From positions 1 through 64,000 of the forward strand of contig JAFLUA010000008.1 in assembly GCA_022508985.1 (NCBI GenBank): 64,000 bases of DNA, written 5' to 3'. This document shows positions 3,763-3,895 of this stretch, piece after piece. Every line of letters starts with the position of its first letter. The stretch's first letter is position 1. Made by a program: the position numbers and the translations under genes. The notes beneath the pieces are model-generated. The model did no database searches and was not told the origin of the DNA. It saw nothing but the letters and a program-made list of their open reading frames with translations. Source of the stretch: Muribaculaceae bacterium (lineage in GTDB: Bacteria > Bacteroidota > Bacteroidia > Bacteroidales > Muribaculaceae).

Positions 3763-3895
3763 TATCTGTTCTTGAGGTCTTCCACAACCTATCAACCAAA
3801 ATAAATGAGTAAAGCCCACGCCTATGGAGAGGACGTGAGCATTTTCGCTTTACTCGTGGTTGATTTTGAAAAGTGGAAGTTTCAAGAACCAGATA
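3763..3895 (-). ncRNA. Long multi-helix hairpin, putative structured leader RNA or dispersed fold-back element
   Basis: Seen directly: nested inverted repeats fold about 133 nt into one rod. Helices are 3763-3775 with 3882-3895 (13 bp, one bulged base), 3779-3785 with 3873-3879 (7 bp), 3791-3798 with 3857-3864 (8 bp), 3807-3815 with 3847-3855 (9 bp, GAGTAAAGC/GCTTTACTC) and an apical stem 3817-3823 with 3830-3837. Smaller hairpins (for example GTGT-AGGC-ACAC at 3728-3739) lie between it and the MBL gene. A TACATTTG -7 box at 3982-3989 would make this the 5' leader of the MBL transcript. It could be a regulatory leader, a free RNA processed from it, or a MITE-like insertion. Strand and function are inferred; the pairing itself is not. 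Confidence 0.45.

Follow-up and report, generated by a model that had tools for sequence, protein, structure and literature searches.

A hairpin upstream of an MBL-fold gene belongs to a Bacteroidota-wide family of RNA leaders and is a candidate transcription attenuator

The hairpin at positions 3763-3895 of the window (the whole 64,000-nt stretch of DNA that was analysed) is, as judged by sequence comparison, one copy of a large and unnamed family of RNA leaders that extends across the Bacteroidota. Its long rod and a second, terminator-like hairpin are mutually exclusive, and we therefore read the element as a probable cis-acting transcription attenuator, one of a phylum-wide family.

Results

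The hairpin is the core of a larger conserved element

On the minus strand, which is the strand of the downstream gene, positions 3763-3895 were folded by RNAfold into a single rod of -51.7 kcal/mol (z -7.5), and the plus strand also gave one rod (-52.7 kcal/mol, z -7.1); on neither strand was any of 200 shuffles as low. The whole leader (3985-3640) folds at -90.3 kcal/mol (z -5.5). The first-pass annotation had called the extent and regularity of the hairpin far beyond chance, which these values bear out, and its helices of 13, 7, 8, 9 and 7 bp are close to the computed 6+7 (that is, 13), 7, 2, 8, 7 and 7+3 bp of the minus-strand rod. It had also placed the hairpin correctly between a -7 box, TACATTTG (3989-3982, minus strand), which is of the Bacteroidota promoter type (TAnnTTTG), and the MBL ORF, for which a start is possible at 3648. 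The extent that it gave holds for the hairpin and is too small for the conserved unit. The element that is described by covariance models, and by covariation on 100 members, covers about 170 nt (3911-3740 on the minus strand, from model R1) with the rod as its core, and there are conserved parts outside it too: a mini-ORF upstream (3955-3947) and a segment downstream (3722-3714). The small stems that had been noted downstream are more plausibly the 3' arm of an alternative terminator hairpin and the partner in a pseudoknot.

No Rfam 15 family lies over the window's element at the gathering threshold or over the element in scans of 32 loci with E limits set at 1, 0.5, 0.1 and 0.1. The comparison included Bacteroidales-1, 6S and DUF805, without a covariance-model match over the element, in agreement with the earlier failure to assign the hairpin to a named family. 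Elsewhere in the window, Rfam places an S4-Bacteroidia ribosomal protein leader at 57345-57380.

Distribution of the RNA family

Two covariance models were used: R1 was built from 11 members and the broader R2 from 100. At E<=0.01, R1 matched 168 of the 247 genomes searched from the window's family, with 1 to 8 places per genome among the matches listed, and at E<=0.001 it matched 41 of 247 genomes of the class; R2 at E<=1e-4 matched 26 of 247 genomes of the phylum (the window's own genome is counted in all three). These counts may be low because searches over more than 40 genomes used stricter filters and scored few candidates. Within its own genome R1 found five places at E<=1, while R2 found 11 at E<=0.1, nine of them at E<=0.001; four of these 11 match R2 by construction because its training set, A5, contains them. 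A longer subfamily of 216-245 nt, which carries additional apical sequence, also occurs in the own genome (L068, L277-L280 and L282) and is mostly detected by R2 alone.

Searching the own genome at the DNA level gave a second copy, 78% identical, located before a gene that by eye resembles the BspA-type leucine-rich-repeat genes and not an MBL gene. This copy lies directly behind a gene pair that by eye is like a HigBA-type toxin-antitoxin system (L002, 1807-2549, minus strand). Among 198 genomes of the same family, the own included, a DNA search at E<=0.01 produced matches in 25, several of which are only 19-40 nt long and perhaps due to chance. A pattern scan of one genome per named species (84,980 species) yielded at least 119 stretches. 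Of the 80 loci listed from it, 79 have an R1 match at E<=0.001, and by record title all are from Bacteroidota except two metagenome bins; L071 and L093 are loci that carry the RNA element, Paraprevotella clara and an Alistipes strain being examples of culturable carriers. The two bins are labelled as Bacillota (L127, which has the pattern without an R1 match) and Paenibacillus (L136); either the labels may be wrong or the bins contaminated.

Close copies of the element are scattered over genera of the window's family, as they would be if the hairpin were a mobile fold-back DNA element, one of the origins put forward in the first-pass annotation. That origin is hardly credible, since the promoter box, the mini-ORF, the fold with its compensatory pairs and the distance to the ORF recur together, and neither one exact pattern run on viral contigs nor blastn against phage and plasmid records produced a copy. 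A phage, plasmid or viral source of the element was rejected on the same searches.

The comparisons below are based on three sets of members: a set of 114, reduced from 115 when one duplicate element was dropped; a set of 158, from which elements shorter than 140 nt or duplicated were excluded; and a set from 100 chosen sources.

Covariation in the rod

The rod (fold A, the presumed antiterminator; 3895-3763) was examined in an alignment of 100 members, and in 500 shuffles none reached the observed values. Standard pairs occupy 92.7% of its cells (74.5% when shuffled), changes on both sides occur at 37 of its 45 pairs (29.4 in shuffles) and in 757 cells (240.5). Its covariation score of 0.493 compares with 0.172 for the shuffles and with only 0.042-0.064 when the structure is displaced by 1-3 columns. 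Fitting the alignment to the model works in favour of the structure, and the shuffles do not preserve relatedness. All 7 pairs of the basal helix and all 7 of the second helix nevertheless change on both sides; support is weak for the small third hairpin, in which 73-74% of cells are paired, and the apical stem is nearly invariant across members. On this comparative evidence we conclude that the rod is a real RNA fold. The compensatory changes in homologues on which the first-pass annotation had made its hairpin depend are thus present at most of the pairs.

The base of the rod, P1, joins the 5' strand AAAAGC (3911-3906) to 3746-3741. It is paired in 93% of cells in the 100 members, and its own value of -5.75 is lower than that of the best permutation (-5.58). 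Tests with one member per cluster were significant (104, 70 and 43 clusters); tests within clusters were not significant at any of three levels (p 0.05-0.49, the tightest 0.49). The 5' strand of P1 can also pair with TGCT in a local hairpin, H1. P1a is locally paired in 107 of 114 members, and an own-versus-permuted test of H1 was not significant, leaving this hairpin suggestive.

A second conserved fold ends in a terminator-like hairpin

The alternative fold (fold B) pairs the upper 3' strand of the rod with the segment just before the U-run. That segment resembles the 5' arm of the rod tip and so it can take that arm's place. In the window the hairpin spans 3822-3746, with the GGCGUGGGC..ACUC side (3822-3807) pairing with GAGU..GUCCACG (3758-3746) and the arms about 50 nt apart, and it is followed by a U-run (3745-3740) that at the same time makes up most of P1's 3' strand.

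In 158 members the pairing of own arms scored -16.79, compared with -14.36 for permuted arms and -14.87 for the best of 5000 permutations. For the 19 members with an arm other than the usual CGTGGGC, among them L297, L300, L302 and L303, the values were -15.04 and -9.27 when permuted, and very distant members appear by eye to keep the pairing with other letters. Taking one member per cluster (104, 70 or 43 clusters) gave p<0.005 in all tests; within the tightest clusters the result was not significant (p 0.20), and at looser clustering both this arm and the downstream pseudoknot described below were significant within clusters. When folded alone, the 3' half forms the terminator hairpin in 153 of 158 members (-26.0 kcal/mol for that of the window), and a U-run (at least 6 T in 8 nt) follows the stem in 152 of 158; control windows had such a run in 11 of 158 members downstream and in 0 and 70 of 158 inside the element, the last near its 5' end. 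In whole-element minimum-energy folds the terminator pairing is found in only 2 of 158 members, the rod being far more stable. We rejected the idea that the U-run serves solely as the partner of P1, because it persists where the letters of P1 change (this is partly a judgement by eye). In L300 and L302, which come from other families of the phylum, the rod's 5' arm is repeated exactly over about 9-11 nt ahead of the U-run, with letters unlike those of the rest of the RNA family (both by eye).

The 5' half has an alternative hairpin of its own, H2 (3885-3866), in which UUGAAA (3885-3880) pairs with UUUCAA (3871-3866) and the loop contains the 5' strand of P2b, CUUCCAC. It is formed in 86 of 100 members and scored -4.28, against -2.81 when permuted and -3.40 for the best of 5000 permutations. 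The cluster tests gave significance for H2 inside clusters and, when each cluster supplied a single member, for 61 and for 31 clusters; with 17 clusters they did not (mean p 0.17). A candidate attachment of GCCUAUG to AUAGGC in the apical loop, which by eye some copies suggest and others contradict, was discarded.

Around the 3' strand of P2b, GUGGAAG (3785-3779), 97 of 100 members have GGU (3789-3787) paired with ACC (3778-3776) or one of the variants GGC:GCC, CGU:ACG and GGG:CCC; tested against shuffles only, this pairing scored 293 and the shuffle maximum was 278. Judged by position, it could form a short internal hairpin in fold B or act as a crossing pair in fold A, and it would fit within the terminator hairpin or as a loop pairing with the loop of H2. 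The remaining pairing, PK2 (3758-3714), is a predicted pseudoknot in which the 3' arm of the terminator, GAGUUUGUC (3758-3750), meets a segment beyond the U-run, GACAGGCUC (3722-3714). In 114 members its mean was -7.99 against -6.48 when permuted, with 0 of 5000 permutations as low, and the own partner was among the best 5% in only 33 of the 114, the window's included. One-per-cluster tests were significant here too (104, 70 and 43 clusters) and the test within the tightest clusters was not (p 0.18).

These comparisons point to two mutually exclusive conserved folds, one of them a hairpin followed by a U-run, as an attenuator should have, and they do so more weakly within tight clusters. Because traces of covariation come from both folds, the element would make a good model for RNA switching.

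A promoter box and a minimal ORF precede the element

The promoter motif TAnnTTTG occurs at most 150 nt upstream of the element in 76 of 114 members, where 7.5 were expected from shuffles. Between box and element the window has a minimal ORF, AUG-AUA-UAA (3955-3947, minus strand, within GCGTATGATATAA), and the distance from the -7 box to the AUG of the mini-ORF is a median of 27 nt (n=46). The strict motif GCC[TA]AUG was found upstream of the element in 74 of 114 members, mostly 30-50 nt before it, in some further away and in one marginal member at -120; the window's copy, in which GCG replaces GCC, falls outside these 74. In every one of the 74 a stop closes the reading frame within five codons, as it does in only 21 and 30 of them when the other two frames are read; within three codons after the AUG the count is 71 in frame, and 8 and 15 out of frame. 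The AUG is followed at once by the stop in 15, after one further codon in 42, after two in 14 and after four in three. There are 36 distinct mini-ORFs among them and all three stop codons are used. Other AUGs of the same regions meet a stop within six codons in 52% of cases (n=196) and those of shuffles in 37%. The early in-frame stops argue for translation of the mini-ORF. No such motif is present, even by a looser rule, in 29 of 114 members, and by eye most of 26 distant class-level members lack the mini-ORF; the existence of these members suggests that the switch can do without it.

The near-immediate stop in all 74 strict mini-ORFs, upstream of a closed structure, is also what one would expect if the element worked at the level of translation. 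A ribosome would then end the mini-ORF at the foot of the RNA and be handed over, or shunted, to the main start, with the alternative pairings secondary. In the passages of PMC11550727 that bear on it, cauliflower mosaic virus (CaMV) has this arrangement of a first short ORF and a hairpin that the ribosome passes. Such a leader would leave the U-run and the covariation of the terminator arm unexplained, the distant members keep the rod, the terminator arm and the U-run but mostly have no mini-ORF (the ORF judged by eye), and the titles and abstract openings that were searched contain no bacterial precedent. We regard it as unlikely.

Genes downstream of the element

The next ORF, sought on the same strand only, follows the element at a median of 70 nt (quartiles 53 and 102) in 108 members, the other 6 of 114 having no scorable downstream ORF. 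Together with the promoter box and a conserved fold with compensatory changes, this spacing supports the regulatory leader that the first-pass annotation had offered as one of its options. A strict though crude rule for signal peptides classed 73 of the 108 ORFs as encoding exported proteins, compared with 59 of 315 control ORFs when the first ATG was used and 70 of 315 with the best ATG; both figures are given because the choice of downstream starts favoured signal peptides, and the controls come from loci L069-L148 only. A first, looser rule flagged 94 of 108 downstream ORFs together with 172 or 223 of the 355 controls, and for this reason the stricter one was adopted. Pfam, which was given 93 of the 108 proteins, returned BspA repeats in 11 and a secretion-tail domain in four, the rest being scattered over 40 families, of which 25 were listed. 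LytTR proteins stand behind the element in 2 of 93 cases by Pfam, and at L091 (4386-4613, plus strand) and L281 the ORF directly behind it resembles, by eye, a small helix-turn-helix protein. Such helix-turn-helix and LytTR products could be regulators under the switch, or regulators of it.

A true riboswitch, in which a small molecule or ion would bind conserved parts of the rod and choose the fold, would be in keeping with the nearly invariant apical stem and with the two exclusive folds. The downstream genes suggest no ligand because they are diverse, encoding mostly exported proteins and not the members of one pathway, and we consider a riboswitch doubtful. It overlaps with the attenuator, for which it would name the signal, so the probabilities of the two need not sum to one.

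In the window the downstream gene (3648-2470, minus strand) encodes an MBL-fold protein of 392 aa (Lactamase_B, E 5.1e-11) without a signal peptide by the strict rule. The protein matches PADLOC models LmuA (1.9e-13) and RTasMBL (8.2e-13), with best stretches of about 55 residues. These short matches, and a terminator hairpin and U-run that would yield a discrete 3' end, are compatible with a stable small RNA whose 3' end would be the U-run and which would work in trans or, like the RNA of a retron, with the MBL protein. Such a small RNA is most improbable given the same-strand ORF at a median of 70 nt behind the element, the pairing partner that PK2 has beyond the U-run, and the N-termini of the 108 downstream ORFs, among which only the window's was recognised as MBL. 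A search with the MBL protein in 61 genomes, the own included, found only the own protein and a weak stretch of 48 residues in one other genome, whereas the RNA is in 168 of 247 family genomes. No constant neighbouring enzyme gene was found. The partnership of RNA and MBL protein that the first-pass annotation had raised is therefore not borne out, and its question whether copies always sit before an MBL gene is answered by the many unrelated downstream genes.

Discussion

A model for attenuation

Comparison of members supports the pairings, the U-run, the mini-ORF and the gene context from which the proposed attenuator is assembled. Transcription would start at the TAnnTTTG promoter, and in many copies the leader would first present the mini-ORF: an AUG, usually no to two codons, and a stop. 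We infer that the rod is an antiterminator and the alternative hairpin a terminator. In fold A the 5' and middle strands would form the long rod, its base P1 pairing with the U-run, and RNA polymerase would read into the gene; in fold B the 5' half would fold on itself as H2 and stay apart, while the middle strand and the 3' segment would form a long hairpin followed by the U-run, that is, an intrinsic terminator. Since the rod is the minimum-energy fold, termination requires either that the 5' half is held back or that folding kinetics decide. The loops of the fold-B hairpins (of the CUUCGAC and GUCGAAG types) are complementary, and contact between them could start the change to the rod. Loop contacts that start strand exchange are known for antisense RNA pairs. 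In the read-through RNA the downstream segment (of the GGACU type) may pair with the 3' arm of the terminator and could in this way lock fold A.

Some signal would have to act on the 5' half. From the distances we estimate that a ribosome on the mini-ORF, if this is translated, would stand near the foot of the structure, and so the mini-ORF may feed the status of translation into the choice of fold. A wider and more tentative proposal, which we think will probably prove incorrect in this form, is that ribosomes at the AUG-stop report the state of translation to a bistable leader in which the loop-loop contact picks terminator or rod, coupling general translation capacity to the genes of exported and surface proteins in Bacteroidota.

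If the attenuator is real, a regulatory RNA that is common in a dominant gut phylum has no Rfam entry despite its presence in more than half of the family genomes searched (168 of 247). It would place surface and secreted proteins (those with BspA-type leucine-rich repeats, secretion-tail proteins and lipoproteins) under shared control, and it would provide a bacterial case of selected AUG-stop ORFs in which the role of minimal ORFs is directly testable.

Comparison with known systems

The trp-type leaders and the T-box are transcription attenuators that operate by exchange of terminator and antiterminator. The element resembles them in having two exclusive hairpins that share one strand, a U-run and, in many copies, a short upstream ORF. 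It differs from them in that its mini-ORF, usually with no to two codons after the AUG, can hardly be a codon counter, in the diversity of its mostly exported gene products, and in its long rod with extra crossing pairs. The nearest known leaders are the DUF805 and DUF805b RNAs (RF03081 and RF02914), which are cis-regulatory in Bacteroidota and often present in several copies per genome. At L052, L057 and L073 a DUF805-type motif lies between element and gene, so that two leader RNAs stand in tandem (L015 is the same place as L057 in the Rfam scans). DUF805 was rejected as a part of the element: 0 of 60 DUF805/b loci have the element (there was one 15-bit match, E 0.98), and the window's genome has no DUF805 or DUF805b match.

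The titles and abstract openings that were searched contain no description of the element, nor was it identified in main-text passages of PMC2864571, PMC8040213 and PMC9723704, supplements aside; the accessible text of PMC2965389 lacks the words Bacteroides, Bacteroidetes, Flavobacter and Bacteroidales. One of the thousands of candidates in PMC8040213, to go by its main-text passages, could be a part of the element. HMP2_4205 (Fremin and Bhatt 2021, PMC8040213) is there a palindromic candidate of 132 bp, mostly from Bacteroidetes, with a predicted terminator, and it and other palindromic candidates share these traits with the element in a comparison by description, not by alignment.

The mini-ORF has likenesses of its own. 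According to passages of PMC8012679 the bar minigene of phage lambda is AUG-AUA-UAA, the same three codons as in the window, but members of the element's family differ in the middle codon and some have none. The ribosome shunt of CaMV and the start-stop uORFs of plants and animals, as described in parts of PMC11550727 and PMC5972666, likewise have a very short ORF before the main ORF, followed in CaMV by a large hairpin. Those systems work with the scanning ribosomes of eukaryotes, whereas the element is bacterial and its minimal ORF is tied to an alternative fold that looks like a terminator.
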